Assembly: GCF_000003605.2 (NCBI RefSeq)
Contig: NW_003139464.1
Coordinates: 1-20,818 of the forward strand
DNA: 20,818 bases
Direction: 5' to 3'
Source of the DNA: Saccoglossus kowalevskii
Lineage: Eukaryota; Hemichordata; Enteropneusta; Harrimaniidae
Every line of letters starts with the position of its first letter. Within the stretch, counting starts at the first letter, position 1. The notes below the pieces were generated by a model. It saw only the letters and a list, made by a program, of their open reading frames with translations. It did no database searches and was not told the DNA's origin. Made by a program: the position numbers and the translations under genes. Shown one piece after another: positions 1-20,818 of this stretch.

Positions 1-127
1 CATGTGTATGTGTGCATTTATCTAAACACTGCAGGTAAACCAAGTATATGTGTATGTGTGCATTCATCTAAACACTGCAGGTAAACCAAGTATGTGTGCA
101 TTTATCTAAACACTGCAGGTAAACCAA
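1..127. repeat. Left edge of the array: partial unit, 46-bp unit and first 38-bp unit
   Basis: The window opens inside a monomer (1-43, beginning CATGTGTATG). A 46-bp unit follows at 44-89, beginning GTATATGTG and carrying CATTCATC in place of CATTTATC. A 38-bp unit occupies 90-127. Similar GTATATGTG units followed by short units recur near 8120-8200, where CCTTCATC is found. The sequence to the left is outside the window, so this is not evidence of an array boundary. Confidence 0.85.
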
Positions 128-756
128 GTATGTGTGCATTTATCTAAACACTGCAGGTAAACCAAGTATGTGTGCATTTATCTAAACACTGCAGGTAAAT
201 CAAGTATGTGTATGTGTGCATTTATCTAAACACTGCAGGTAAATCAAGTATGTGTATGTGTGCATTTATCTAAACACTGCAGGTAAATCAAGTATGTGTA
301 TGTGTGCATTTATCTAAACACTGCAGGTAAATCAAGTATGTGTATGTGTGCATTTATCTAAACACTGCAGGTAAACCAAATATGTGTATGTGTGCATTTA
401 TCTAAACACTGCTGGTAAACCAAGTATGTGTATGTGTGCATTTATCTAAACACTGTAGGTAAACCAAGTATGTGTATGTGTGCATTTATCTAAACACTGC
501 AGGTAAACCAAGTATATGTGTATGTGTGCATTTATCTAAACACTGCAGGTAAACCAAGTATGTGTGCATTTATCTAAACACTGCAGGTAAACCAAGTATG
601 TGTATGTGTGCATTTATCTAAACACTGCAGGTAAACCAAGTATGTGTATGTGTGCATTTATCTAAACACTGCAGGTAAACCAAGTATGTGTCTGTGTGCA
701 TTTATCTAAATGCTGCAGGTAAACCAAGTATGTGTATGTGTGCATTTATCTAAACA

Positions 757-769
757 CTCCAGGTTAATC
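757..769. repeat. HOR anchor variant CTCCAGGTTAATC (first of seven)
   Basis: This unit combines CTCCAGG for CTGCAGG (losing the PstI site) with GTTAATC for GTAAACC. The combination recurs at 4469, 8788, 9393, 13650, 15806 and 18846. Each occurrence follows a GTGTCTGTG unit (AATGCTG in six cases, AACGCTG at 8788) and is followed by a GCATTATC unit with one T fewer and then a TATGTAAACAC unit. The distances between successive anchors are 3712, 4319, 605, 4257, 2156 and 3040 bp. This string of linked rare variants is the clearest sign that blocks of monomers, rather than single monomers, have been copied. Confidence 0.9.
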
Positions 770-1112
770 AAGTATGTGTATGTGTGCATTATCTAAACAC
801 TGCAGGTAAACCAAGTATGTGTATGTGTGTATTTATGTAAACACTGCAGGTAAACCAAGTATGTGTATATGTGCATTTATCTAAACACTGCAGGTAAACC
901 AAGTATGTATCTGTGTGCATTTATCTAAACGCTGCAGGTAAATCAAGTATGTGTATGTGTGCATTTATCTAAACACTCCAGGTAAACCAAGTATGTGTAT
1001 GTATGCATTTATCTAAACACTGCAAGTAAACCAAATATGTGTATGTGTGCATTTATCTAAACACTGCAGGTAAACCAAGTATGTGTATGTGTGCATTTAT
1101 CTAAACACTGCA

Positions 1113-1462
1113 GGTAACCAAGTACGTATCTGTGTGCATTTATCTAAACACTGCAGGTAAACCAAGTATGTATCTGTGTGCATTTATCTAAACACTGCAG
1201 GTAAACCAAGTATGTGTATGTGTGCATTTATCTAAACACTGCAGGTAAACCAAGTATATGTATGTGTGCATTTATCTAAACACTGCAGGTAACCAAGTAC
1301 GTATCTGTGTGCATTTATCTAAACACTGCAGGTAAACCAAGTATGTATCTGTGTGCATTTATCTAAACACTGCAGGTAAACCAAGTATGTGTATGTGTGC
1401 ATTTATCTAAACACTGCAGGTAAACCAAGTATATGTATGTGTGCATTTATCTAAACACTGCA
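1113..1462. repeat. 175-bp four-monomer internal duplication in HOR copy 1
   Basis: The variant GGTAACCAAGTACGTATC starts at 1113 and again at 1288, and each time is followed by the same series of units. The step of 175 bp is three 44-bp units plus one 43-bp unit (the tail lacks one A). The same tandem duplication is present in HOR copy 6 (16162 and 16337). It is single in copy 2 (4825), copy 4 (11273), and also in copies 5 and 7. It is therefore a marker of shared descent between copies 1 and 6. Confidence 0.88.
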
Positions 1463-1650
1463 GGTAAACCAAGTATATGTGTATGTGTGCATTTATCTAA
1501 ACACTGCAGGTAAACCAAGTATGTGTATGTGTGCATTTATTTAAACACTGCTGGTAAACCAAGTATGTGTATGTGTGCATTTATCTAAACATTGTAGGTA
1601 AACCAAGTATGTGTATGTGTGCATTTATCTAAACACTGCAGGTAAACCAA

Positions 1651-1702
1651 GTATATGTGTATGTTTATGTGTGCATTTATCTAAACACTGCAGGTAAACC
1701 AA
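1651..1702. repeat. 52-bp anchor monomer with GTATGTTTATGTG insertion
   Basis: The leading block reads GTATATGTGTATGTTTATG before TGTGCA, making the unit 52 bp. It recurs as 5188-5239, 11636-11687, 14369-14420, 16700-16751 and 19565-19616. Each time it follows a CATTGTAGG unit and one ordinary unit, and is followed by GTATGTATCTCTG (shortened to GTATGTATCTCTGCA in the copy near 14430) and an AACGCTG unit. It lies 729 or 904 bp downstream of the CTCCAGGTTAATC anchor. The 175-bp difference is the four-monomer duplication in copies 1 and 6. Confidence 0.9.
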
Positions 1703-2538
1703 GTATGTATCTCTGTGCATTTATCTAAACGCTGCAGGTAAATCAAGTATGTGTATGTGTGCATTTATCTAAACACTCCAGGTAAACCAAGTATGTGTAT
1801 GTATGCATTTATCTAAACACTGCAGGTAAACCAATTATGTGTATGTGTGCATTTATCTAAACACTGTAGGTAAACCAAGTATGTATCTGTGTGCATTTAT
1901 CTAAACACTGCAGGTAAACCAAGTATGTATCTGTGTGCATTTATCTAAACGCTGCAGGTAAACCAAGTATGTGTATGTGTGCATTTATCTAAACACTGCA
2001 GATAAACCAAGTATGTGTATGTGTGCATTTATCTAAACACTGCAGGTAAACCAAGTATGTGTATGTGTGCATTTATCTAAACACTGCAGGTAAACCAAGT
2101 ATGTGTATGTGTGCATTTATCTAAACACTGCAGGTAAATCAAGTATATGTATGTGTGCATTTATCTAAACACTGCAGATAAATCAAGTATGTGTATGTGT
2201 GCATTTATCTAAACACTGCAGGTAAACCAAGTATGTGTATGTGTGCATTTATCTAAACACTGCAGGTAAACCAAGTATGTGTATGTGTGCATTTATCTAA
2301 ACACTGCAGGTAAACCAAGTATGTATCTGTGTGCATTTATCTAAACACTGCAAGTAAACCAAGTATGTATCTGTGTGCATTTATCTAAATGCTGCAGGTA
2401 AATCAAGTACGTGTATGTGTGCATTTATCTAAACACTGCAGATAAACCAAGTATGTGTATGTGTGCATTTATCTAAACACTGCAGGTAAACCAAGTATGT
2501 GTATGTGTGTATTTATCTAAACACTGCAGGTAAACCAA

Positions 2539-2652
2539 GTATGTGTGCATTTATCGAAACACTGCAGGTAAACCAAGTATGTGTGCATTTATCTAAACAC
2601 TGCAGGTAAACCAAGTATGTGTGCATTTATCTAAACACTGCTGGTAAATCAA
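2539..2652. repeat. Run of three 38-bp short monomers (recurrent triplet)
   Basis: Three consecutive units lack one TATGTG hexamer and so are 38 bp each (2539, 2577, 2615). The first carries TTATCGAAAC and the third CTGCTGGTAAATC. Equivalent triplets lie at 5768-5881, 12530-12643 and 17588-17701. A related triplet with TTATCAAAAC and ACTACAGG lies at 7079-7192 and 10421-10534. Other runs of short units are at 90-203, 8165-8278, 15349-15424 (two) and 20101-20176 (two). Short units are thus clustered at fixed HOR positions and not scattered. Confidence 0.88.
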
Positions 2653-2960
2653 GTATGTGTATGTGTGCATTTATCTAAATACTGCAGGTAAATCAAGTAT
2701 GTGTATGTGTGCATTTATCTAAACACTGCAGGTAAACCAAGTATGTGTATGTGTGCATTTATCTAAACAGTGCAGGTAAATCAAGTATGTGTATTTGTGC
2801 ATCTATCTAAACACTGCAGGTAAACCAAGTATGTGTATGTGTGCATTTATCTAAACACTGCAGGTAAACCAAGTATGTGTACATGTGCATTTATCTAAAC
2901 ACTGCAGGTAAACCAAGTATGTGTATGTGTGCATTTATCTAAACACTGCAGGTAAACCAA

Positions 2961-3016
2961 GTATGTGTATGTGTATGTGTATGTGTGCATTTATCTAAAC
3001 ACTGCAGGTAAACCAA
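2961..3016. repeat. 56-bp monomer with two extra TATGTG hexamers
   Basis: The leading block carries two extra TATGTG hexamers, extending the unit to 56 bp. The same form is found at 3772-3827, 12952-13007, 18012-18067 and 20485-20540. The equivalent unit in HOR copy 2 (6190-6239) has only one extra hexamer and is 50 bp. Each is preceded by the GTGTACATG unit and an ordinary unit. Other 50-bp units occur near 3370, 6590, 7370, 10625, 12217, 15078 and 18420. Confidence 0.88.
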
Positions 3017-3570
3017 GTATGTGTATGTGTGCATTTATTGAAACACTGCAGGTAAACCAAGTATGTGTATGTGTGCATTTATCTAAACACTGCATGTAAA
3101 ATAAGTATGTGTATGTGTGCATTTATCTAAACACTGCTGGTAAACCAAGTATGTGTATGTGTGCATTTATCTAAACACTGTAGGTAAACCAAGTATATGG
3201 TATGTGTGCATTTATCTAAACACTGCAGGTAAACCAAGTATGTGTATGTGTGCATTTATCTAAACACTGCAGGTAAACCAAGTATGTGTATGTGTGCATT
3301 TATCTAAACACTGCAGGTAAACCAAGTATGTGTCTGTGTGCATTTATCTAAACACTGCAGGTAAGCCAAGTATGTGTATGTGTATGTGTGCATTTATCTA
3401 AACACTGCAGGTAAACCAAGTATGTATCTGTGTGCATTTATCTAAACGCTGCAGGTAAATCAAGTATGTGTATGTGTGCATTTATCTAAACACTGCAGAT
3501 AAACCAAGTATGTGTATGTGTGCATTTATCTAAACACTGCAGGTAAACCAAGTATGTGTATGTGTGCATT

Positions 3571-3915
3571 TATCTAAACAGTGCAGGTAAATCAAGTATG
3601 TGTATTTGTGCATCTATCTAAACACTGCAGGTAAACCAAGTATGTGTATGTGTGCATTTATCTAAACACTGCAGGTAAACCAAGTATGTGTACATGTGCA
3701 TTTATCTAAACACTGCAGGTAAACCAAGTATGTGTATGTGTGCATTTATCTAAACACTGCAGGTAAACCAAGTATGTGTATGTGTATGTGTATGTGTGCA
3801 TTTATCTAAACACTGCAGGTAAACCAAGTATGTGTATGTGTGCATTTATTGAAACACTGCAGGTAAACCAAGTATGTGTATGTGTGCATTTATCTAAACA
3901 CTGCAGGTAAATCAA
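3571..3915. repeat. Re-entry block: partial copy of 2760-3060 at an 811-bp step
   Basis: The ACAGTGCAGG, GTATTTGTGCATC, GTGTACATG, 56-bp and TTATTGAAAC units seen at 2768-3060 appear again here 811 bp further on. This copy then leaves by a different exit. The unit after TTATTGAAAC is followed by AAATCAAG units that begin HOR copy 2, where the first instance went to CATGTAAAATAAG. The same exit into AAATCAAG units is used near 13050 and 20570. Confidence 0.82.
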
Positions 3916-6780
3916 GTATGTGTATGTGTGCATTTATCTAAACACTGCAGGTAAATCAAGTATGTGTATGTGTGCATTTATCTAAACACTGCAGGTAAAT
4001 CAAGTATGTGTATGTGTGCATTTATCTAAACACTGCAGGTAAACCAAGTATGTGTATGTATGCATTTATCTAAACACTGCAGGTAAACCAAATATGTGTA
4101 TGTGTGCATTTATCTAAACACTGCTGGTAAACCAAGTATGTGTATGTGTGCATTTATCTAAACACTGTAGGTAAACCAAGTATGTGTATGTGTGCATTTA
4201 TCTAAACACTGCAGGTAAACCAAGTATATGTGTATGTGTGCATTTATCTAAACACTGCAGGTAAACCAAGTATGTGTGCATTTATCTAAACACTGCAGGT
4301 AAACCAAGTATGTGTATGTGTGCATTTATCTAAACACTGCAGGTAAACCAAGTATGTGTATGTGTGCATTTATCTAAACACTGCAGGTAAACCAAGTATG
4401 TGTCTGTGTGCATTTATCTAAATGCTGCAGGTAAACCAAGTATGTGTATGTGTGCATTTATCTAAACACTCCAGGTTAATCAAGTATGTGTATGTGTGCA
4501 TTATCTAAACACTGCAGGTAAACCAAGTATGTGTATGTGTGTATTTATGTAAACACTGCAGGTAAACCAAGTATGTGTATATGTGCATTTATCTAAACAC
4601 TGCAGGTAAACCAAGTATGTATCTGTGTGCATTTATCTAAACGCTGCAGGTAAATCAAGTATGTGTATGTGTGCATTTATCTAAACACTCCAGGTAAACC
4701 AAGTATGTGTATGTATGCATTTATCTAAACACTGCAAGTAAACCAAATATGTGTATGTGTGCATTTATCTAAACACTGCAGGTAAACCAAGTATGTGTAT
4801 GTGTGCATTTATCTAAACACTGCAGGTAACCAAGTACGTATCTGTGTGCATTTATCTAAACACTGCAGGTAAACCAAGTATGTATCTGTGTGCATTTATC
4901 TAAACACTGCAGGTAAACCAAGTATGTGTATGTGTGCATTTATCTAAACACTGCAGGTAAACCAAGTATATGTATGTGTGCATTTATCTAAACACTGCAG
5001 GTAAACCAAGTATATGTGTATGTGTGCATTTATCTAAACACTGCAGGTAAACCAAGTATGTGTATGTGTGCATTTATTTAAACACTGCTAGTAAACCAAG
5101 TATGTGTATGTGTGCATTTATCTAAACATTGTAGGTAAACCAAGTATGTGTATGTGTGCATTTATCTAAACACTGCAGGTAAACCAAGTATATGTGTATG
5201 TTTATGTGTGCATTTATCTAAACACTACAGGTAAACCAAGTATGTATCTCTGTGCATTTATCTAAACGCTGCAGGTAAATCAAGTATGTGTATGTGTGCA
5301 TTTATCTAAACACTCCAGGTAAACCAAGTATGTGTATGTATGCATTTATCTAAACACTGCAGGTAAACCAAGTATGTGTATGTGTGCATTTATCTAAACA
5401 CTGTAGGTAAACCAAGTATGTATCTGTGTGCATTTATCTAAACACTGCAGGTAAACCAAGTATGTATCTGTGTGCATTTATCTAAACGCTGCAGGTAAAC
5501 CAAGTATGTGTATGTGTGCATTTATCTAAACACTGCAGATAAACCAAGTATGTGTATGTGTGCATTTATCTAAACACTGCAGGTAAACCAAGTATGTGTA
5601 TGTGTGCATTTATCTAAACACTGCAGGTAAACCAAGTATGTGTATGTGTGCATTTATCTAAACACTGCAGGTAAATCAAGTATATGTATGTGTGCATTTA
5701 TCTAAACACTGCAGGTAAACCAAGTATGTGTATGTGTGTATTTATCTAAACACTGCAGGTAAACCAAGTATGTGTGCATTTATCGAAACACTGCAGGTAA
5801 ACCAAGTATGTGTGCATTTATCTAAACACTGCAGGTAAACCAAGTATGTGTGCATTTATCTAAACACTGCTGGTAAATCAAGTATGTGTATGTGTGCATT
5901 TATCTAAATACTGCAGGTAAATCAAGTATGTGTATGTGTGCATTTATCTAAACACTGCAGGTAAACCAAGTATGTGTATGTGTGCATTTATCTAAACAGT
6001 GCAGGTAAATCAAGTATGTGTATTTGTGCATCTATCTAAACACTGCAGGTAAACCAAGTATGTGTATGTGTGCATTTATCTAAACACTGCAGGTAAACCA
6101 AGTATGTGTACATGTGCATTTATCTAAACACTGCAGGTAAACCAAGTATGTGTATGTGTGCATTTATCTAAACACTGCAGGTAAACCAAGTATGTGTATG
6201 TGTATGTGTGCATTTATCTAAACACTGCAGGTAAACCAAGTATGTGTATGTGTGCATTTATTGAAACACTGCAGGTAAACCAAGTATGTGTATGTGTGCA
6301 TTTATCTAAACACTGCATGTAAAATAAGTATGTGTATGTGTGCATTTATCTAAACACTGCTGGTAAACCAAGTATGTGTATGTGTGCATTTATCTAAACA
6401 CTGTAGGTAAACCAAGTATATGGTATGTGTGCATTTATCTAAACACTGCAGGTAAACCAAGTATGTGTATGTGTGCATTTATCTAAACACTGCAGTAAAC
6501 CAAGTATGTGTATGTGTGCATTTATCTAAACACTGCAGTAAACCAAGTATGTGTCTGTGTGCATTTATCTAAACACTGCAGTAAGCCAAGTATGTGTATG
6601 TGTATGTGTGCATTTATCTAAACACTGCAGTAAACCAAGTATGTGTATGTGTGCATTTATCTAAACGCTGCAGGTAAATCAAGTATGTGTATGTGTGCAT
6701 TTATCTAAACACTGCAGATAAACCAAGTATGTGTATGTGTGCATTTATCTAAACACTGCAGGTAAACCAAGTATGTGTAT
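3916..6780. repeat. Higher-order repeat copy 2
   Basis: It is colinear with copy 1 at offset +3712 (about 376-1288), +3537 after losing the 175-bp duplication, +3229 after losing a further 308 bp (seven 44-bp units, equivalent to about 2170-2480 of copy 1), and +3223 after a 56-bp unit became 50 bp. It carries the anchors CTCCAGGTTAATC (4469), the 52-bp unit (5188) and CATGTAAAATAAG (6316). It shares CTGCTAGTAAACC (about 5087) and ACTACAGG (about 5226) with copy 6 (about 16602 and 16737) but not with copy 1. Near 6493-6630 four successive units each lack one G. Confidence 0.85.
6493..6630. repeat. Four successive units with one G deleted (CTGCAGTAA for CTGCAGGTAA)
   Basis: At about 6493, 6536, 6579 and 6628 the usual CAGGTAA reads CAGTAA, shortening each unit by one base. 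The four units are otherwise different variants (ordinary, ordinary, GTGTCTGTG and the 50-bp GTAAGCC unit). Their counterparts in copies 1 and 6 (about 3270-3420 and 18325-18470) all keep the G. One duplication of a mutant unit therefore does not explain the run. A local consensus error is at least as likely as biology. Confidence 0.85.
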
Positions 6781-7280
6781 GTGTGCATTTATCTAAACAC
6801 TGCAGGTAAACCAAGTATGTGTATATGTGCATTTATCTAAACACTGCAGGTAAATCAAGTATGTGTATGTGTGCATTTATCTAAACACTGCAGATAAATC
6901 AAGTATGTGTATGTGTGCATTTATCTAAACACTGCAGGTAAATCAAGTATGTGTATGTGTGCATTTATCTAATCACTGCAGGTAAACCAAGTATGTGTAT
7001 GTGTGCATTTATCTAATCACTGCAGGTAAACCAAGTATGTGTATGTGTGCATTTATCTAAACACTGCAGGTAAACCAAGTATGTGTGCATTTATCAAAAC
7101 ACTGCAGGTAAACCAAGTATGTGTGCATTTATCTAAACACTACAGGTAAACCAAGTATGTGTGCATTTATCTAAACACTGCAGGTAAATCAAGTATGTGT
7201 ATGTGTGCATTTATCTAAACACTGCAGGTAAATCAAGTATGTGTATGTGTGCATTTATCTAAACACTGCAGGTAAACCAA
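6640..7280. repeat. 620-bp block shared with 9982-10622 (offset +3342)
   Basis: The order is AACGCTG, AGATAAACC, ordinary units, GTGTATATG, AAATC, AGATAAATC, two TAATCACTG units, then the 38-bp triplet with TTATCAAAAC and ACTACAGG, and two AAATC units. All of these recur at +3342. TAATCACTG is found only in these two places (6970, 7014 and 10312, 10356), so this block defines a second HOR sub-type. The partners part company near 7280 and 10622. Confidence 0.83.
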
Positions 7281-8406
7281 GCATGTGTATGTGTGCATTT
7301 ATCTAAACAGTGCAGGTAAATCAAGTATGTGTATTTGTGCATCTATCTAAACACTGCAGGTAAACCAAGTATGTGTATGTGTATGTGTGCATTTATCTAA
7401 ACACTGCAGGTAAACCAAGTATGTGTACGTGTGCATTTATCGAAACACTGCAGGTAAACCAAGTATGTGTATATGTGCATTTATCGAAACACTGCAGGTG
7501 AAATAAGTATGTGTATGTGTGCATTTATCTAAACACTGCTGGTAAACCAAGTATGTATATGTGTGCATTTATCTAAACACTGTAGGTAAACCAAGTATAT
7601 GTGTATGTGTGCATTTATCTAAACACTGCAGGTAAACCAAGTACGTGTGCATTTATCTAAACACTGCAGGTAAATCAAGTATGTGTATGTGTGCATTTAT
7701 CTAAACACTGCAGGTAAATCAAGTATGTGTATGTGTGCATTTATCTAAACACTGCAGGTAAATCAAGTATGTGTATGTGTGCATTTATCTAAACACTGCA
7801 GGTAAATCAAGTATGTGTATGTGTGCATTTATCTAAACACTGCAGGTAAACCAAATATGTGTATTTATGCATTTATCTAAACACTGCTGGTAAACCAAGT
7901 ATGTGTATGTGTGCATTTATCTAAACACTGTAGGTAAACCAAGTATGTGTATGTGTGCATTTATCTAAACACTGCAGGTAAACCAAATATGTGTATGTGT
8001 GCATTTATCTAAACACTGCTGGTAAACCAAGTATGTGTATGTGTGCATTTATCTAAACACTGTAGGTAAACCAAGTATGTGTATGTGTGCATTTATCTAA
8101 ACACTGCAGGTAAACCAAGTATATGTGTATGTGTGCCTTCATCTAAACACTGCAGGTAAACCAAGTATGTGTGCATTTATCTAAACACTGCAGGTAAACC
8201 AAGTATGTGTGCATTTATCTAAACACTGCAGGTAAATCAAGTATGTGTGCATTTATCTAAACACTGCAGGTAAATCAAGTATGTGTATGTGTGCATTTAT
8301 CTAAACACTGCAGGTAAATCAAGTATGTGTATGTGTGCATTTATCTAAACACTGCAGGTAAATCAAGTATGTGTATGTGTGCATTTATCTAAACACTGCA
8401 GGTAAA

Positions 8407-9510
8407 CCAAATATGTGTATGTGTGCATTTATCTAAACACTGCTGGTAAACCAAGTATGTGTATGTGTGCATTTATCTAAACACTGTAGGTAAACCAAGT
8501 ATGTGTATGTGTGCATTTATCTAAACACTGCAGGTAAACCAAGTATATGTGTATGTGTGCATTTATCTAAACACTGCAGGTAAACCAAGTATGTGTGCAT
8601 TTATCTAAACACTGCAGGTAAACCAAGTATGTGTATGTGTGCATTTATCTAAACACTGCAGGTAAACCAAGTATGTGTATGTGTGCATTTATCTAAACAC
8701 TGCAGGTAAACCAAGTATGTGTCTGTGTGCATTTATCTAAACGCTGCAGGTAAACCAAGTATGTGTATGTGTGCATTTATCTAAACACTCCAGGTTAATC
8801 AAGTATGTGTATGTGTGCATTATCTAAACACTGCAGGTAAACCAAGTATGTGTATGTGTGCATTTATGTAAACACTGCAGGTAAACCAAGTATGTGTATA
8901 TGTGCATTTATCTAAACACTGCAGGTAAACCAAGTATGTATCTGTGTGCATTTATCTAAACACTGCAGGTAAATCAAGTATGTGTATGTGTGCATTTATC
9001 TAAACACTGCAGGTAAACCAAATATGTGTATGTGTGCATTTATCTAAACACTGCTGGTAAACCATGTATGTGTATGTGTGCATTTATCTAAACACTGTAG
9101 GTAAACCAAGTATGTGTATGTGTGCATTTATCTAAACACTGCAGGTAAACCAAGTATATGTGTATGTGTGCATTTATCTAAACACTGCAGGTAAACCAAG
9201 TATGTGTGCATTTATCTAAACACTGCAGGTAAACCAAGTATGTGTATGTGTGCATTTATCTAAACACTGCAGGTAAACCAAGTATGTGTGCATTTATCTA
9301 AACACTGCAGGTAAACCAAGTATGTGTCTGTGTGCATTTATCTAAATGCTGCAGGTAAACCAAGTATGTGTATGTGTGCATTTATCTAAACACTCCAGGT
9401 TAATCAAGTATGTGTATGTGTGCATTATCTAAACACTGCAGGTAAACCAAGTATGTGTATGTGTGCATTTATGTAAACACTGCAGGTAAACCAAGTATGT
9501 GTATATGTGC
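8407..9510. repeat. Tandem duplication of a block of about 605 bp
   Basis: CCAAATATG at 8407 and 9018 are 611 bp apart. The linked CTCCAGGTTAATC anchors at 8788 and 9393 are 605 bp apart. The 6-bp difference is one hexamer: the second copy has a 38-bp unit near 9279 where the first has 44 bp. Both copies carry CTGCTGG, CTGTAGG, the 46-bp GTATATGTG unit, a 38-bp unit, GTGTCTGTG, GCATTATC and TATGTAAACAC in the same order. The second has CCATG for CCAAG near 9062. Confidence 0.87.
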
Positions 9511-10904
9511 ATTTATCTAAACACTGCAGGTAAACCAAGTATGTATCTGTGTGCATTTATCTAAACGCTGCAGGTAAATCAAGTATGTGTATGTGTGCAT
9601 TTATCTAAACACTCCAGGTAAACCAAGTATGTGTATGTATGCATTTATCTAAACACTGCAGGTAAACCAAATATGTGTATGTGTGCATTTATCTAAACAC
9701 TGCAGGTAAACCAAGTATGTGTATGTGTGCATTTATCTAAACACTGCAGGTAAACCAAGTATATGTGTATGTGTGCATTTATCTAAACACTGCAGGTAAA
9801 CCAAGTATGTGTATGTGTGCATTTATCTAAACACTGCTGGTAAACCAAGTATGTGTATGTGTGCATTTATCTAAACACTGTAGGTAAACCAAGTATGTGT
9901 ATGTGTGCATTTATCTAAACACTGCAGGTAAACCAAGTATGTGTATATGTGCATTTATGTAAACACTGCAGGTAAACCAAGTATGTGTATGTGTGCATTT
10001 ATCTAAACGCTGCAGGTAAATCAAGTATGTGTATGTGTGCATTTATCTAAACACTGCAGATAAACCAAGTATGTGTATGTGTGCATTTATCTAAACACTG
10101 CAGGTAAACCAAGTATGTGTATGTGTGCATTTATCTAAACACTGCAGGTAAACCAAGTATGTGTATATGTGCATTTATCTAAACACTGCAGGTAAATCAA
10201 GTATGTGTATGTGTGCATTTATCTAAACACTGCAGATAAATCAAGTATGTGTATGTGTGCATTTATCTAAACACTGCAGGTAAATCAAGTATGTGTATGT
10301 GTGCATTTATCTAATCACTGCAGGTAAACCAAGTATGTGTATGTGTGCATTTATCTAATCACTGCAGGTAAACCAAGTATGTGTATGTGTGCATTTATCT
10401 AAACACTGCAGGTAAACCAAGTATGTGTGCATTTATCAAAACACTGCAGGTAAACCAAGTATGTGTGCATTTATCTAAACACTACAGGTAAACCAAGTAT
10501 GTGTGCATTTATCTAAACACTGCAGGTAAATCAAGTATGTGTATGTGTGCATTTATCTAAACACTGCAGGTAAATCAAGTATGTGTATGTGTGCATTTAT
10601 CTAAACACTGCAGGTAAACCAAGTATGTGTATGTGTATGTGTGCATTTATCTAAACACTGCAGGTAAACCAAGTATGTGTATGTGTGCATTTATCTAAAC
10701 ACTGCAGGTAAACCAAGTATGTATCTGTGTGCATTTATCTAAACACTGCAAGTAAACCAAGTATGTATCTGTGTGCATTTATCTAAATGCTGCAGGTAAA
10801 TCAAGTACGTGTATGTGTGCATTTATCTAAACACTGCAGATAAACCAAGTATGTGTATGTGTGCATTTATCTAAACACTGCAGGTAAACCAAGTATGTGT
10901 ATGT

Positions 10905-11060
10905 GTGTATTTATCGAAAAACTGCAGGTAAACCACGTATGTGTGCATTTATCCAAACACTGCAGGTAAACCAAGTATGTATCTGTGTGCATTTATCTAA
11001 ACGCTGCAAGTCAACCAAGTATGTGGATGTGTGCATTTATCTAAACACTGCAGGTAAACC
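10905..11060. repeat. Divergent junction of about four units between HOR blocks
   Basis: Several changes not seen elsewhere fall within about 150 bp: TTATCGAAAAACTG (about 10912), CCACG for CCAAG (about 10934), TTATCCAAAC (about 10949), GCAAGTCAACC (about 11006) and GTATGTGGATG (about 11020). These remove most of the usual stop codons and leave a fortuitous 63-codon open frame at 10897-11088 whose translation is only the repeat read through. To the left the sequence follows the 10520-10910 block. To the right, from about 11060, it follows HOR copy 4. It may be an older, less homogenised remnant at an exchange point. Confidence 0.75.
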
Positions 11061-13085
11061 AAGTATGTATCTGTGTGCATTTATCTAAACGCTGCAGGTA
11101 AATCAAGTATGTGTATGTGTGCATTTATCTAAACACTCCAGGTAAACCAAGTATGTGTATGTATGCATTTATCTAAACACTGCAAGTAAACCAAATATGT
11201 GTATGTGTGCATTTATCTAAACACTGCAGGTAAACCAAGTATGTGTATGTGTGCATTTATCTAAACACTGCAGGTAACCAAGTACGTATCTGTGTGCATT
11301 TATCTAAACACTGCAGGTAAACCAAGTATGTATCTGTGTGCATTTATCTAAACACTGCAGGTAAACCAAGTATGTGTATGTGTGCATTTATCTAAACACT
11401 GCAGGTAAACCAAGTATATGTATGTGTGCATTTATCTAAACACTGCAGGTAAACCAAGTATATGTGTATGTGTGCATTTATCTAAACACTGCAGGTAAAC
11501 CAAGTATGTGTATGTGTGCATTTATTTAAACACTGCTGGTAAACCAAGTATGTGTATGTGTGCATTTATCTAAACATTGTAGGTAAACCAAGTATGTGTA
11601 TGTGTGCATTTATCTAAACACTGCAGGTAAACCAAGTATATGTGTATGTTTATGTGTGCATTTATCTAAACACTGCAGGTAAACCAAGTATGTATCTCTG
11701 TGCATTTATCTAAACGCTGCAGGTAAATCAAGTATGTGTATGTGCGCATTTATCTAAACACTCCAGGTAAACCAAGTATGTGTATGTATGCATTTATCTA
11801 AACACTGCAGGTAAACCAAGTATGTGTATGTGTGCATTTATCTAAACACTGTAGGTAAACCAAGTATGTATCTGTGTGCATTTATCTAAACACTGCAGGT
11901 AAACCAAGTATGTATCTGTGTGCATTTATCTAAACGCTGCAGGTAAACCAAGTATGTGTATGTGTGCATTTATCTAAACACTGCAGATAAACCAAGTATG
12001 TGTATGTGTGCATTTATCTAAACACTGCAGGTAAACCAAGTATGTGTATGTGTGCATTTATCTAAACACTGCAGGTAAACCAAGTATGTGTATGTGTGCA
12101 TTTATCTAAACACTGCAGGTAAATCAAGTATGTGTATGTGTGCATTTATCTAAACACTGCAGGTAAATCAAGTATGTGTATGTGTGCATTTATCTAAACA
12201 CTGCAGGTAAACCAAGTATGTGTATGTGTATGTGTGCATTTATCTAAACACTGCAGGTAAACCAAGTATGTGTATGTGTGCATTTATCTAAACACTGCAG
12301 GTAAACCAAGTATGTATCTGTGTGCATTTATCTAAACACTGCAAGTAAACCAAGTATGTATCTGTGTGCATTTATCTAAATGCTGCAGGTAAATCAAGTA
12401 CGTGTATGTGTGCATTTATCTAAACACTGCAGATAAACCAAGTATGTGTATGTGTGCATTTATCTAAACACTGCAGGTAAACCAAGTATGTGTATGTGTG
12501 TATTTATCTAAACACTGCAGGTAAACCAAGTATGTGTGCATTTATCGAAACACTGCAGGTAAACCAAGTATGTGTGCATTTATCTAAACACTGCAGGTAA
12601 ACCAAGTATGTGTGCATTTATCTAAACACTGCTGGTAAATCAAGTATGTGTATGTGTGCATTTATCTAAATACTGCAGGTAAATCAAGTATGTGTATGTG
12701 TGCATTTATCTAAACACTGCAGGTAAACCAAGTATGTGTATGTGTGCATTTATCTAAACAGTGCAGGTAAATCAAGTATGTGTATTTGTGCATCTATCTA
12801 AACACTGCAGGTAAACCAAGTATGTGTATGTGTGCATTTATCTAAACACTGCAGGTAAACCAAGTATGTGTACATGTGCATTTATCTAAACACTGCAGGT
12901 AAACCAAGTATGTGTATGTGTGCATTTATCTAAACACTGCAGGTAAACCAAGTATGTGTATGTGTATGTGTATGTGTGCATTTATCTAAACACTGCAGGT
13001 AAACCAAGTATGTGTATGTGTGCATTTATTGAAACACTGCAGGTAAACCAAGTATGTGTATGTGTGCATTTATCTAAACACTGCA
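11060..13085. repeat. Higher-order repeat copy 4 (left part missing)
   Basis: The copy begins inside the HOR at a point equivalent to about 900 in copy 1, so it lacks the CTCCAGGTTAATC anchor. It runs at offset +10160 until the site where copy 1 has its 175-bp duplication, then +9985, then +9991 after a unit gained one hexamer (about 12217). It holds the 52-bp anchor (11636-11687), a 38-bp triplet (12530-12643) and the 56-bp unit (12952-13007). It leaves by the TTATTGAAAC to AAATCAAG exit. GTGCGCAT near 11743 is shared only with copy 7 (about 19672). Confidence 0.82.
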
Positions 13086-14850
13086 GGTAAATCAAGTATG
13101 TGTATGTGTGCATTTATCTAAACACTGCAGGTAAATCAAGTATGTGTATGTGTGCATTTATCTAAACACTGCAGGTAAATCAAGTATGTGTATGTGTGCA
13201 TTTATCTAAACACTGCAGGTAAACCAAGTATGTGTATGTATGCATTTATCTAAACACTGCAGGTAAACCAAATATGTGTATGTGTGCATTTATCTAAACA
13301 CTGCTGGTAAACCAAGTATGTGTATGTGTGCATTTATCTAAACACTGTAGGTAAACCAAGTATGTGTATGTGTGCATTTTATCTAAACACTGCAGGTAAA
13401 CCAAGTATATGTGTATGTGTGCATTTATCTAAACACTGCAGGTAACCAAGTATGTGTGCATTTATCTAAACACTGCAGGTAAACCCAGTATGTGGTATGT
13501 GTGCATTTATCTAAACACTGCAGGTAAACCAAGTATGTGTATGTGTGCATTTATCTAAACACTGCAGGTAAACCAAGTATGTGTCTGTGTGCATTTATCT
13601 AAATGCTGCAGGTAAACCAAGTATGTGTATGTGTGCATTTATCTAAACACTCCAGGTTAATCAAGTATGTGTATGTGTGCATTATCTAAACACTGCAGGT
13701 AAACCAAGTATGTGTATGTGTGCATTTATGTAAACACTGCAGGTAAACCAAGTATGTGTATATGTGCATTTATCTAAACACTGCAGGTAAACCAAGTATG
13801 TATCTGTGTGCATTTATCTAAACGCTGCAGGTAAATCAAGTATGTGTATGTGTGCATTTATCTAAACACTCCAGGTAAACCAAGTATGTGTATGTATGCA
13901 TTTATCTAAACACTGCAGGTAAACCAAATATGTGTATGTGTGCATTTATCTAAACACTGCAGGTAAACCAAGTATGTGTATGTGTGCATTTATCTAAACA
14001 CTGCAGGTAACCAAGTACGTATCTGTGTGCATTTATCTAAACACTGCAGGTAAACCAAGTATGTATCTGTGTGCATTTATCTAAACACTGCAGGTAAACC
14101 AAGTATGTGTATGTGTGCATTTATCTAAACACTGCAGGTAAACCAAGTATGTGTATGTGTGCATTTATCTAAACACTGCAGGTAAACCAAGTATATGTGT
14201 ATGTGTGCATTTATCTAAACACTGCAGGTAAACCAAGTATGTGTATGTGTGCATTTATTTAAACACTGCTGGTAAACCAAGTATGTGTATGTGTGCATTT
14301 ATCTAAACATTGTAGGTAAACCAAGTATGTGTATGTGTGCATTTATCTAAACACTGCAGGTAAACCAAGTATATGTGTATGTTTATGTGTGCATTTATCT
14401 AAACACTGCAGGTAAACCAAGTATGTATCTCTGCATTTATCTAAACGCTGCAGGTAAATCAAGTATGTGTATGTGTGCATTTATCTAAACACTCCAGGTA
14501 AACCAAGTATGTGTATGTATGCATTTATCTAAACACTGCAGGTAAACCAAGTATGTGTATGTGTGCATTTATCTAAACACTGCAGGTAAACCAAGTATGT
14601 ATCTGTGTGCATTTATCTAAACACTGCAGGTAAACCAAGTATGTATCTGTGTGCATTTATCTAAACGCTGCAGGTAAACCAAGTATGTGTATGTGTGCAT
14701 TTATCTAAACACTGCAGATAAACCAAGTATGTGTATGTGTGCATTTATCTAAACACTGCAGGTAAACCAAGTATGTGTATGTGTGCATTTATCTAAACAC
14801 TGCAGGTAAACCAAGTATGTGTATGTGTGCATTTATCTAAACACTGCAGG
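13086..14850. repeat. Higher-order repeat copy 5 (right part missing)
   Basis: It matches copy 2 at offset +9180 to +9181 from about 3540 through about 5670, covering the 3571-3915 re-entry block and the left half of copy 2. It carries CTCCAGGTTAATC (13650) and the 52-bp unit (14369-14420). Divergence begins near 14850, where an ordinary unit replaces the GTATATGTATG unit of copy 2. Between 13376 and 13495 it has four private small changes in four units (GCATTTTATC, GGTAACC, AAACCCAG, TGTGGTATG). Confidence 0.82.
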
Positions 14851-15348
14851 TAAATCAAGTATGTGTATGTGTGCATTTATCTAAACACTGCAGGTAAATC
14901 AAGTATGTGTATGTGTGCATTTATCTAAACACTGCAGGTAAATCAAGTATGTGTATGTGTGCATTTATCTAAACACTGCAGGTAAACCAAATATGTGTAT
15001 GTGTGCATTTATCTAAACACTGCTGGTAAACCAAGTATGTGTATGTGTGCATTTATCTAAACACTGTAGGTAAACCAAGTATGTGTATGTGTATGTGTGC
15101 ATTTATCTAAACACTGCAGGTAAACCAAATATGTGTATGTGTGCATTTATCTAAACACTGCTGGTAACCAAGTATGTGTATGTGTGCATTTATCTAAACA
15201 CTGTAGTAAACCAAGTATGTGTATGTGTGCATTTATCTAAACACTGCAGGTAAACCAAGTATATGTGTATGTGTGCATTTATCTAAACACTGCAGGTAAA
15301 CCAAGTATGTGTATGTGTGCATTTATCTAAACACTGCAGGTAAACCAA
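14851..15348. repeat. Short variable bridge between HOR copies 5 and 6
   Basis: Three AAATC units lead into a CCAAATATG, CTGCTGG, CTGTAGG series that occurs twice in quick succession (about 14990 and 15128), the first ending in a 50-bp unit. In the second pass both CTGCTGGTAACC (about 15161) and CTGTAGTAAACC (about 15201) are one base short. The bridge resembles the 7850-8130 region, which also repeats this series. Confidence 0.78.
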
Positions 15349-18300
15349 GTATGTGTGCATTTATCTAAACACTGCAGGTAAACCAAGTATGTGTGCATTT
15401 ATCTAAACACTGCAGGTAAATCAAGTATGTGTATGTGTGCATTTATCTAAACACTGCAGGTAAATCAAGTATGTGTATGTGTGCATTTATCTAAACACTG
15501 CAGGTAAATCAAGTATGTGTATGTGTGCATTTATCTAAACACTGCAGGTAAACCAAGTATGTGTATGTATGCATTTATCTAAACACTGCAGGTAAACCAA
15601 ATATGTGTATGTGTGCATTTATCTAAACACTTCTGGTAAACCAAGTATGTGTATGTGTGCATTTATCTAAACACTGTAGGTAAACCAAGTATGTGTATGT
15701 GTGCATTTATCTAAACACTGCAGGTAAACCAAGTATGTGTCTGTGTGCATTTATCTAAATGCTGCAGGTAAACCAAGTATGTGTATGTGTGCATTTATCT
15801 AAACACTCCAGGTTAATCAAGTATGTGTATGTGTGCATTATCTAAACACTGCAGGTAAACCAAGTATGTGTATGTGTGCATTTATGTAAACACTGCAGGT
15901 AAACCAAGTATGTGTATATGTGCATTTATCTAAACACTGCAGGTAAACCAAGTATGTATCTGTGTGCATTTATCTAAACGCTGCAGGTAAATCAAGTATG
16001 TGTATGTGTGCATTTATCTAAACACTCCAGGTAAACCAAGTATGTGTATGTATGCATTTATCTAAACACTGCAAGTAAACCAAATATGTGTATGTGTGCA
16101 TTTATCTAAACACTGCAGGTAAACCAAGTATGTGTATGTGTGCATTTATCTAAACACTGCAGGTAACCAAGTACGTATCTGTGTGCATTTATCTAAACAC
16201 TGCAGGTAAACCAAGTATGTATCTGTGTGCATTTATCTAAACACTGCAGGTAAACCAAGTATGTGTATGTGTGCATTTATCTAAACACTGCAGGTAAACC
16301 AAGTATATGTATGTGTGCATTTATCTAAACACTGCAGGTAACCAAGTACGTATCTGTGTGCATTTATCTAAACACTGCAGGTAAACCAAGTATGTATCTG
16401 TGTGCATTTATCTAAACACTGCAGGTAAACCAAGTATGTGTATGTGTGCATTTATCTAAACACTGCAGGTAAACCAAGTATATGTATGTGTGCATTTATC
16501 TAAACACTGCAGGTAAACCAAGTATATGTGTATGTGTGCATTTATCTAAACACTGCAGGTAAACCAAGTATGTGTATGTGTGCATTTATTTAAACACTGC
16601 TAGTAAACCAAGTATGTGTATGTGTGCATTTATCTAAACATTGTAGGTAAACCAAGTATGTGTATGTGTGCATTTATCTAAACACTGCAGGTAAACCAAG
16701 TATATGTGTATGTTTATGTGTGCATTTATCTAAACACTACAGGTAAACCAAGTATGTATCTCTGTGCATTTATCTAAACGCTGCAGGTAAATCAAGTATG
16801 TGTATGTGTGCATTTATCTAAACACTCCAGGTAAACCAAGTATGTGTATGTATGCATTTATCTAAACACTGCAGGTAAACCAAGTATGTGTATGTGTGCA
16901 TTTATCTAAACACTGTAGGTAAACCAAGTATGTATCTGTGTGCATTTATCTAAACACTGCAGGTAAACCAAGTATGTATCTGTGTGCATTTATCTAAACG
17001 CTGCAGGTAAACCAAGTATGTGTATGTGTGCATTTATCTAAACACTGCAGATAAACCAAGTATGTGTATGTGTGCATTTATCTAAACACTGCAGGTAAAC
17101 CAAGTATGTGTATGTGTGCATTTATCTAAACACTGCAGGTAAACCAAGTATGTGTATGTGTGCATTTATCTAAACACTGCAGGTAAATCAAGTATATGTA
17201 TGTGTGCATTTATCTAAACACTGCAGATAAATCAAGTATGTGTATGTGTGCATTTATCTAAACACTGCAGGTAAACCAAGTATGTGTATGTGTGCATTTA
17301 TCTAAACACTGCAGGTAAACCAAGTATGTGTATGTGTGCATTTATCTAAACACTGCAGGTAAACCAAGTATGTATCTGTGTGCATTTATCTAAACACTGC
17401 AAGTAAACCAAGTATGTATCTGTGTGCATTTATCTAAATGCTGCAGGTAAATCAAGTACGTGTATGTGTGCATTTATCTAAACACTGCAGATAAACCAAG
17501 TATGTGTATGTGTGCATTTATCTAAACACTGCAGGTAAACCAAGTATGTGTATGTGTGTATTTATCTAAACACTGCAGGTAAACCAAGTATGTGTGCATT
17601 TATCGAAACACTGCAGGTAAACCAAGTATGTGTGCATTTATCTAAACACTGCAGGTAAACCAAGTATGTGTGCATTTATCTAAACACTGCTGGTAAATCA
17701 AGTATGTGTATGTGTGCATTTATCTAAATACTGCAGGTAAATCAAGTATGTGTATGTGTGCATTTATCTAAACACTGCAGGTAAAACCAAGTATGTGTAT
17801 GTGTGCATTTATCTAAACAGTGCAGGTAAATCAAGTATGTGTATTTTGTGCATCTATCTAAACACTGCAGGTAAACCAAGTATGTGTATGTGTGCATTTA
17901 TCTAAACACTGCAGGTAAACCAAGTATGTGTACATGTGCATTTATCTAAACACTGCAGGTAAACCAAGTATGTGTATGTGTGCATTTATCTAAACACTGC
18001 AGGTAAACCAAGTATGTGTATGTGTATGTGTATGTGTGCATTTATCTAAACACTGCAGGTAAACCAAGTATGTGTATGTGTGCATTTATTGAAACACTGC
18101 AGGTAAACCAAGTATGTGTATGTGTGCATTTATCTAAACACTGCATGTAAAATAAGTATGTGTATGTGTGCATTTATCTAAACACTGCTGGTAAACCAAG
18201 TATGTGTATGTGTGCATTTATCTAAACACTGTAGGTAAACCAAGTATATGGTATGTGTGCATTTATCTAAACACTGCAGGTAAACCAAGTATGTGTATGT

Positions 18301-18646
18301 GTGCATTTATCTAAACACTGCAGGTAAACCAAGTATGTGTATGTGTGCATTTATCTAAACACTGCAGGTAAACCAAGTATGTGTCTGTGTGCATTTATCT
18401 AAACACTGCAGGTAAGCCAAGTATGTGTATGTGTATGTGTGCATTTATCTAAACACTGCAGGTAAACCAAGTATGTATCTGTGTGCATTTATCTAAACGC
18501 TGCAGGTAAATCAAGTATGTGTATGTGTGCATTTATCTAAACACTGCAGATAAACCAAGTATGTGTATGTGTGCATTTATCTAAACACTGCAGGTAAACC
18601 AAGTATGTGTATGTGTGCATTTATCTAAACACTGCAGGTAAACCAA
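15349..18646. repeat. Higher-order repeat copy 6, nearly colinear with copy 1
   Basis: The alignment to copy 1 starts at two 38-bp units (15349-15424 against 128-203) at offset +15221. It shifts to +15049 after loss of 172 bp, which equals the 46-, 38-, 44- and 44-bp units present in copy 1 before its GTGTCTGTG unit, and to +15051 after two one-base insertions (GGTAAAACC about 17784, TATTTTGTG about 17843). It shares the 175-bp duplication with copy 1, and CTGCTAGTAAACC and ACTACAGG with copy 2, so its variants are mosaic. Anchors are at 15806 and 16700; the CATGTAAAATAAG and GGTAAGCC units are at 18144 and 18411. Confidence 0.85.
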
Positions 18647-20818
18647 GTATGTGTGCATTTATCTAAACACTGCAGGTAAACCAAGTATGTGTATGTGTGC
18701 ATTTATCTAAACACTGCAGGTAAACCAAGTATGTGTATGTGTGCATTTATCTAAACACTGCAGGTAAACCAAGTATGTGTCTGTGTGCATTTATCTAAAT
18801 GCTGCAGGTAAACCAAGTATGTGTATGTGTGCATTTATCTAAACACTCCAGGTTAATCAAGTATGTGTATGTGTGCATTATCTAAACACTGCAGGTAAAC
18901 CAAGTATGTGTATGTGTGCATTTATGTAAACACTGCAGGTAAACCAAGTATGTGTATATGTGCATTTATCTAAACACTGCAGGTAAACCAAGTATGTATC
19001 TGTGTGCATTTATCTAAACGCTGCAGGTAAATCAAGTATGTGTATGTGTGCATTTATCTAAACACTCCAGGTAAACCAAGTATGTGTATGTATGCATTTA
19101 TCTAAACACTGCAAGTAAACCAAATATGTGTATGTGTGCATTTATCTAAACACTGCAGGTAAACCAAGTATGTGTATGTGTGCATTTATCTAAACACTGC
19201 AGGTAACCAAGTACGTATCTGTGTGCATTTATCTAAACACTGCAGGTAAACCAAGTATGTATCTGTGTGCATTTATCTAAACACTGCAGGTAAACCAAGT
19301 ATGTGTATGTGTGCATTTATCTAAACACTGCAGGTAAACCAAGTATATGTATGTGTGCATTTATCTAAACACTGCAGGTAAACCAAGTATATGTGTATGT
19401 GTGCATTTATCTAAACACTGCAGGTAAACCAAGTATGTGTATGTGTGCATTTATTTAAACACTGCTGGTAAACCAAGTATGTGTATGTGTGCATTTATCT
19501 AAACATTGTAGGTAAACCAAGTATGTGTATGTGTGCATTTATCTAAACACTGCAGGTAAACCAAGTATATGTGTATGTTTATGTGTGCATTTATCTAAAC
19601 ACTGCAGGTAAACCAAGTATGTATCTCTGTGCATTTATCTAAACGCTGCAGGTAAATCAAGTATGTGTATGTGCGCATTTATCTAAACACTCCAGGTAAA
19701 CCAAGTATGTGTATGTATGCATTTATCTAAACACTGCAGGTAAACCAAGTATGTGTATGTGTGCATTTATCTAAACACTGTAGGTAAACCAAGTATGTAT
19801 CTGTGTGCATTTATCTAAACACTGCAGGTAAACCAAGTATGTATCTGTGTGCATTTATCTAAACGCTGCAGGTAAACCAAGTATGTGTATGTGTGCATTT
19901 ATCTAAACACTGCAGATAAACCAAGTATGTGTATGTGTGCATTTATCTAAACACTGCAGGTAAACCAAGTATGTGTATGTGTGCATTTATCTAAACACTG
20001 CAGGTAAACCAAGTATGTGTATGTGTGCATTTATCTAAACACTGCAGGTAAATCAAGTATGTGTATGTGTGCATTTATCTAAACACTGCAGGTAAACCAA
20101 GTATGTGTGCATTTATCTAAACACTGCAGGTAAACCAAGTATGTGTGCATTTATCTAAACACTGCTGGTAAATCAAGTATGTGTATGTGTGCATTTATCT
20201 AAATACTGCAGGTAAATCAAGTATGTGTATGTGTGCATTTATCTAAACACTGCAGGTAAACCAAGTATGTGTATGTGTGCATTTATCTAAACAGTGCAGG
20301 TAAATCAAGTATGTGTATTTGTGCATCTATCTAAACACTGCAGGTAAACCAAGTATGTGTATGTGTGCATTTATCTAAACACTGCAGGTAAACCAAGTAT
20401 GTGTACATGTGCATTTATCTAAACACTGCAGGTAAACCAAGTATGTGTATGTGTGCATTTATCTAAACACTGCAGGTAAACCAAGTATGTGTATGTGTAT
20501 GTGTATGTGTGCATTTATCTAAACACTGCAGGTAAACCAAGTATGTGTATGTGTGCATTTATTGAAACACTGCAGGTAAACCAAGTATGTGTATGTGTGC
20601 ATTTATCTAAACACTGCAGGTAAATCAAGTATGTGTATGTGTGCATTTATCTAAACACTGCAGGTAAATCAAGTATGTGTATGTGTGCATTTATCTAAAC
20701 ACTGCAGGTAAATCAAGTATGTGTATGTGTGCATTTATCTAAACACTGCAGGTAAACCAAGTATGTGTATGTATGCATTTATCTAAACACTGCAGGTAAA
20801 CCAAATATGTGTATGTGT
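18647..20818. repeat. Higher-order repeat copy 7, cut by the right edge
   Basis: The copy enters at a 38-bp unit (18647-18684) just before the GTGTCTGTG unit and carries CTCCAGGTTAATC (18846) and the 52-bp unit (19565-19616). Relative to copy 1 the offset changes from +17914 to +17524 between about 20045 and 20101, a loss of 390 bp or nine whole units (eight of 44 and one of 38). It then follows the same series as 12572-13286 at +7533, including the 56-bp unit (20485-20540), TTATTGAAAC, AAATC units and CCAAATATG at the edge. The array clearly continues beyond 20818. Confidence 0.83.

Follow-up and report, generated by a model that had tools for sequence, protein, structure and literature searches.

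Large locus-specific VNTR arrays with higher-order repeats (HORs) built on short units are known from the human genome. In the tabulated part of the survey by Warburton et al. 2008 (PMC2588610), which covers human arrays of more than 10 kb, HORs are marked for units of 36, 38, 40 and 61 bp and for one unit of 177 bp, the other arrays being left unmarked. The 61-bp VNTR at Xp22.33, in the pseudoautosomal region, forms an array of 18.6 kb and is described as a complex arrangement of irregular HORs, 1.6 and 2.5 kb long. A short unit can also carry nested HORs within a gene: the 39-bp repeat of hornerin is described as a quartic HOR with nested repeats of about 0.35, 0.7 and 1.4 kb (PMC9584774). 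In alphoid DNA, HOR blocks are up to 97-100% identical, compared to about 70% for monomers (PMC8122249). MSY1 is an AT-rich minisatellite whose units occur in several variants; synthesis-dependent strand annealing has been proposed as the route of its gene conversion (PMC2599865).

The window analyzed here, i.e., the whole stretch of 20,818 nucleotides of Saccoglossus kowalevskii DNA, is a further example of the same kind of object as the human HOR-marked VNTRs:

1..20818, forward strand, one head-to-tail array of 44-bp units, from Tandem Repeats Finder and wraparound decomposition, equal to the whole contig

Tandem Repeats Finder placed the array at 2-20818, with period 44, 474.3 copies and 90% matches. 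The window is the complete contig (1-20818), and both contig ends fall within the array, so that the locus extends beyond 20.8 kb. The array resembles the human 61-bp VNTR in its minisatellite-length unit, array size and irregular HORs; the human locus differs in sequence, unit length and known chromosomal place, and the 44-bp array adds a repeat at about 15 kb. The human VNTRs of 36 bp (15q11.2), 38 bp (3q29) and 40 bp (1p36.32) fall in the same unit-length class, with arrays of more than 10 kb and HORs, and are likened here by their table description only (PMC2588610). Hornerin shares the combination of a short unit with nested HORs, but its repeats lie within a gene, whereas the 44-bp array has an irregular order and no stop-free stretch beyond 66 codons. 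Alphoid HORs are alike in that blocks are closer to each other than neighbouring monomers are; however, alphoid DNA has a 171-bp unit, fixed HORs and a centromeric location, whereas the present array has a 44-bp unit, variable spacing, a single contig, and neighbours that are already 92.5% identical. MSY1 variants lie in homogeneous blocks of constant unit length, while in the 44-bp array variants are interspersed and unit length changes by hexamers (PMC2599865). The first-pass annotation had implied that an HOR on a minisatellite-length unit was new and had likened the array to alphoid DNA. The phenomenon was already described, both in the human 36-, 38-, 40- and 61-bp arrays (PMC2588610) and in hornerin (PMC9584774). 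The alphoid likeness was overdrawn, given an HOR length that is not fixed, a mosaic order with losses and doublings, and confinement to a single contig.

Wraparound alignment to the unit yielded 474 complete monomers, which fall into 82 types. The array is a tandem head-to-tail repeat within the unit range of about 9-100 bp that defines minisatellites and VNTRs. Most monomers are 44 bp long (375 of 474), followed by 38 bp (36), 43 bp (20) and 46 bp (15); lengths of 50 bp (7), 52 bp (6), 45 bp (6), 56 bp (5) and others (4) are rarer. The lengths 38, 44, 50 and 56 bp are steps of whole TATGTG hexamers at the unit end. The commonest type makes up 0.184 of the array, and 30 of the 82 types are singletons, some of which may be consensus errors. 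The G+C content is uniform, 0.348-0.359 across twenty 1-kb windows. There is no ORF of at least 80 codons in the window, and the longest stop-free stretch in the six frames spans 66 codons; a protein-coding tandem repeat of the hornerin type, with an ORF running through the units, was accordingly ruled out.

Two features of the unit are recorded separately. Alternating purine-pyrimidine tracts, which are associated with Z-DNA, occur throughout the window (353 tracts of at least 18 bases, the longest of 30); we ascribe no function to them. At one unit position, the dinucleotides CA, CG, TG and TA are all present among the types with AAACGCTGC, AAATGCTGC, AAACACTGC and AAATACTGC; four such dinucleotides would be expected if a CpG arose there and then decayed by methylation-linked deamination.

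The array had been annotated as an HOR of about 3 kb in which rare variants recur in the same order. All nine landmark variants of that annotation are present in the window: GTGTCTGTG (10 copies), CTCCAGGTTAATC (7), GCATTATC (7), TATGTAAACAC (8), GGTAACCAAGTACG (8), a 52-bp unit (6), GTGTACATG (6), a 56-bp unit (5), and triplets of the 38-bp unit, which are evident from the succession of unit lengths. Seven clusters link the first four of these variants; 3 of the 10 copies of GTGTCTGTG (3330, 6551 and 18381) and one of the 8 copies of TATGTAAACAC (9956) lie outside such clusters. The recurrence of the named variants was thus borne out. The spacing, conversely, is not regular. The best marker, CTCCAGGTTAATC, is found at 757, 4469, 8788, 9393, 13650, 15806 and 18846, with spacings of 3712, 4319, 605, 4257, 2156 and 3040 bp (mean 3,015), so that a fixed number of monomers, iterated in tandem, is absent. 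Of the proposed 3-kb HOR, the ordered rare variants and the block structure stand, whereas the fixed 3-kb unit does not; the description is too regular, and about 3 kb holds only as an average.

Representing the array as a string of monomer types, we distinguish two recurrent modules, without simple alternation: (i) module 1, which contains GTGTCTGTG, CTCCAGGTTAATC, GCATTATC, TATGTAAACAC, GGTAACCAAGTACG and the 52-bp unit; (ii) module 2, which contains CAGTGCAGGTAAATC, GTGTACATG, the 56-bp unit and TTATTGAAAC. Their first copies, and a local doubling inside the first of them, are as follows:

349..2507, forward strand, first copy of module 1 (with GGTAACCAAGTACG twice) and the next monomers up to the 38-bp triplet, from markers at 688, 757, 786, 834, 1113, 1288 and 1652; outer limits chosen by us

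1092..1441, forward strand, local doubling of a four-monomer block (175 bp), from monomer strings and 175-bp spacings; also at 16141-16490

2584..3117, forward strand, first copy of module 2 (last 38-bp unit of the triplet, CAGTGCAGGTAAATC, GTGTACATG, 56-bp unit, TTATTGAAAC, CATGTAAAATAAG), from markers at 2768, 2877, 2961, 3035 and 3093; limits approximate

Exact runs of 21 monomers (349 and 4061) and 20 monomers (1848 and 16897) touch the first of these segments, and an exact run of 17 monomers (2798 and 17849) lies at the first copy of module 2. The order of the modules varies along the array. Module 2 is doubled at about 2754-3880; module 1 begins at 8719 and again at 9324, but its GGTAACCAAGTACG and 52-bp markers come only at 11273; and the segment from 13026 to 17818 lacks any module-2 marker, despite module-1 starts at 13581 and 15737. 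The four-monomer block is single at 4804, 11252 and 19181, and at 13985 it is single and ends in a different monomer.

Long blocks of monomers recur exactly or nearly so. The longest exactly repeated run comprises 25 monomers (1,109 bp), and the main repeated blocks are:

11032..12140, forward strand, longest exact run, copy one, identical to 18961-20069

18961..20069, forward strand, longest exact run, copy two, identical to 11032-12140

3521..5648, forward strand, gapless repeated block, partner 12701-14827 at lag 9180, with 48 monomers, 39 of them identical, and 99.4% identity

13..6296, forward strand, left member of a long repeat at about 15 kb spacing, partner 15228-20597

15228..20597, forward strand, right member of the same long repeat, partner 13-6296

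The next exact runs are of 21 monomers (lag 3712), 20 (11512), 20 (15049), 19 (9991) and 17 (15051). The offsets 3712, 3537, 9180 and 15049 proposed in the first-pass annotation all appear in the list of the 50 longest exact monomer runs. Of the single monomer lags, 343 (about 15 kb) is the strongest, with 46.6% of monomers identical. A block of 5.4-6.3 kb recurs 15 kb away, and its two members share 122 aligned monomers, of which 106 are identical, with 99.5% identity and 21 monomers gapped. Among 17 local block alignments at the monomer level, 14 have 98.07-100% identity and three have 96.4-96.6%, compared to means of 92.5% for neighbouring monomers and 91.6% for all pairs; it should be noted that these alignments were picked for similarity and leave out gapped monomers, so the comparison leans towards an HOR. 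Blocks are more alike than adjacent monomers, as in an HOR. Of the neighbouring pairs, 8.9% are identical. Exactly repeated 10-monomer words hold 353 of the 474 monomers. One segment stands apart:

7250..8247, forward strand, longest stretch free of exact repeats of 5-monomer words with more than two types, dense in singletons

This segment of about 1 kb may be an older remnant or a badly resolved part of the assembly. In ungapped autocorrelation, 44 and its multiples dominate, with peaks near 14,961 and 14,377; the signal is swamped by 44 because length changes break the register, and monomer-level alignment was therefore used instead. Self-blastn of the window returned mainly whole-array chains at about 91%, in which HOR copies are not separated, and printed no inverted match of more than 100 bases.

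Shuffles of monomer order provide a control for block order that is independent, unlike the alignments picked for similarity. In 500 shuffles the longest run did not exceed 7, compared to 25 observed. Repeated 5-monomer words covered 316 of 470 positions; in the same 500 shuffles they covered 0.09 on average and 6 at maximum. First-order Markov chains trained on the array (200 chains) gave runs of up to 28 (mean 10.8), which exceeds the observed 25, and the longest run alone is therefore not decisive; their repeated 5-monomer words, however, averaged 133, compared to 316 observed. For types with 3-12 copies, the commonest successor followed in 168 of 209 cases (80%), against a mean of 28% and a maximum of 33% in 500 shuffles. 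The higher-order organization is real. Amplification in multi-monomer blocks on a minisatellite-length unit, as the first-pass annotation had suggested, is backed by the exact runs, the shuffles, the block alignments and the successor statistics and, as regards scale, by the simulation described below.

The combinations of variants within the modules bear on how the blocks arose. Six markers were scored in seven copies of the module-1 core (872, 4584, 9508, 11032, 13765, 15921 and 18961), a set that differs from the CTCCAGGTTAATC set in that the copy at 11032 lacks CTCCAGGTTAATC and the copy at 8788 lacks the core. All four combinations were found in 5 of 15 marker pairs, which amount to three independent pairs since two markers are fully linked; copies without a state (one or two of seven per pair) were set aside in this count. 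In one of these pairs, the doubled four-monomer block is combined with one or the other variant of a unit further downstream. Such mixed combinations suggest exchange between copies, and recurrent change or a wrong join can also yield them.

We compared the array to a neutral model of random tandem duplication and deletion with exponential block length and infinite-alleles mutation, run at seven block means and five mutation rates (35 settings, 10 runs each). The targets were the fraction of identical neighbours (0.089), the number of types (82), the commonest type (0.184), the coverage by repeated 10-monomer words (0.745) and the longest run (25). Simulated coverage was 0 at a mean block of 1, at most 0.21 at 5, at most 0.53 at 10 and at most 0.66 at 15; at blocks of 25, 40 and 80, with 0.5-1 mutation per event, its means were 0.57-0.80 and single runs straddled 0.745. 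The observed coverage was thus reached only at mean blocks of at least 25 monomers. No setting matched all five statistics. At blocks of 25-80, the mean longest run was 42-58 at 0.5 and 39-52 at 1 mutation per event, compared to 25 observed; identical neighbours were 0.13-0.17 and 0.014-0.031, respectively, compared to 0.089; and types numbered 30-44 and 47-73. To arrive at 82 types the model needed about 1-2 mutations per event, and the fraction of identical neighbours was then 0.005-0.03. Conversion or more small changes would shorten the simulated runs. Under this simple neutral model, the dominant scale of exchange would be about 1-3.5 kb, a conclusion that concerns scale only.

We consider it probable (roughly 0.8) that the array is a large locus-specific non-coding VNTR with irregular HORs, and that its arrangement is the record of many rounds of out-of-register recombination, either between sister chromatids or between homologues. 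The 44-bp units would have gained substitutions, together with gains and losses of the TATGTG hexamer. Unequal crossing-over, or break repair by synthesis-dependent strand annealing, for which the proposal made for MSY1 is a precedent, would then have duplicated or deleted tens of monomers (about 1-3.5 kb) at a time. Long variant-matched blocks perhaps pair better than single monomers, and conversion between copies would have shuffled the variants. This explanation does not require a selected function. The basis is one assembly. A hairpin-driven origin was also considered and found no support: single-strand folding of two units was weaker than that of shuffles on both strands (z +1.5 and +1.7).

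The locus-specific character of the array follows from its distribution in the assembly, which has 572,110,611 bases in 4,830 contigs. For an exact 35-mer of the unit, the assembly contains 170 occurrences, which share one strand, and the window accounts for all 170. When up to two mismatches are allowed, a 20-mer has 468 matches in the assembly (467 on one strand and 1 on the other) and 466 in the window; these assembly counts are given as whole, and repeat counts in general may be lower bounds. The reversed pattern of the 20-mer, used as a control, occurs 6 times in the assembly, compared to 2 matches of the true pattern outside the window. In the assembled sequence the repeat is thus confined to a single locus, as minisatellites and VNTRs are, and the abundant arrays on several chromosomes that mark an alphoid-like satellite were not found in the assembly. 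Because the repeat is on one contig only, it behaves as a locus-specific array rather than a genome-wide satellite. A 601-base piece had no match in phages and plasmids, and an exact 26-mer had none in the viral and prokaryote contig collections; a full-text search with six 13-15-base pieces of the unit returned only a paper on Taxus MYC genes, which we take as chance.

Three other explanations can be weighed against these data. The irregular order could partly be an assembly artefact, caused by mis-joining or collapse of reads that stem from two alleles or from an array of greater regularity. Pure-repeat contigs are difficult to assemble, and 8 of the 30 single-copy types (out of 82) differ by a net one-base length change, at an edit distance of 1-2 from the nearest repeated type, as could result from consensus errors. 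However, the same unusual neighbours are found at several places, and the doubled four-monomer block is present in two copies about 15 kb apart that have different downstream variants; we regard such an artefact as unlikely. Somewhat more doubtful still is the view that the contig is a piece of a larger satellite, centromeric or chromosome-wide, that has true HORs and is mostly missing from the assembly. Unplaced satellite contigs often are pure repeat without flanks, as this contig is, and the excess of block identity over neighbour identity is like that of alphoid HORs. Conversely, by the counts the exact 35-mer is on no other contig, the two outlying 20-mer matches out of 468 are fewer than those of the reversed control, and the spacing varies.

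Ordinary minisatellite drift, in which slippage of one or a few monomers produced apparent HORs by chance, is very improbable. In its favour are the variable hexamer number and short homogeneous runs, such as BBBB and AA among the monomer types, as well as the 38-bp triplets. However, simulations with mean blocks of 1, 5, 10 and 15 never reached the observed coverage (maximum 0.66 compared to 0.745), and runs in shuffles were of at most 7. Slippage as the sole process is contradicted by the shuffles and the simulation, within the limits of the simple model.

The reading of the array as a locus-specific VNTR shaped by out-of-register recombination could be taken further. It is conceivable, though we hold it to be rather unlikely, that exchange on the kilobase scale is far more important than slippage of single units and is nested (44 bp, modules of about 1-4 kb, and a block that recurs at about 15 kb), and that a recombination hotspot or fragile site is the cause. 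If this were true, the monomer string would be a readable record of recombination at one site. The array is a well-resolved natural record of tandem-array growth, in which the 82 unit types can be used like bar codes to help tell block duplication apart from slippage and conversion, and it is useful for modelling the origin of satellites from minisatellites.

A separate observation concerns the mitochondrial contig of the same assembly (C4830; 17,037 bp), in which COX1 was named by search and the other protein names were read from translations. The contig reads TGA as tryptophan and has 5 AGA and 0 AGG codons in ten frames as delimited by us. The best-scoring PDB chains for its COX1 were 7o37_a and 1occ_A, which we take to be mouse and bovine. 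The gene order is unusual: COX1 is on the strand opposite to COX2, ND1 and ND2, ND2 lies before ND1, and tRNA-Pro and ND6 come after CYTB.
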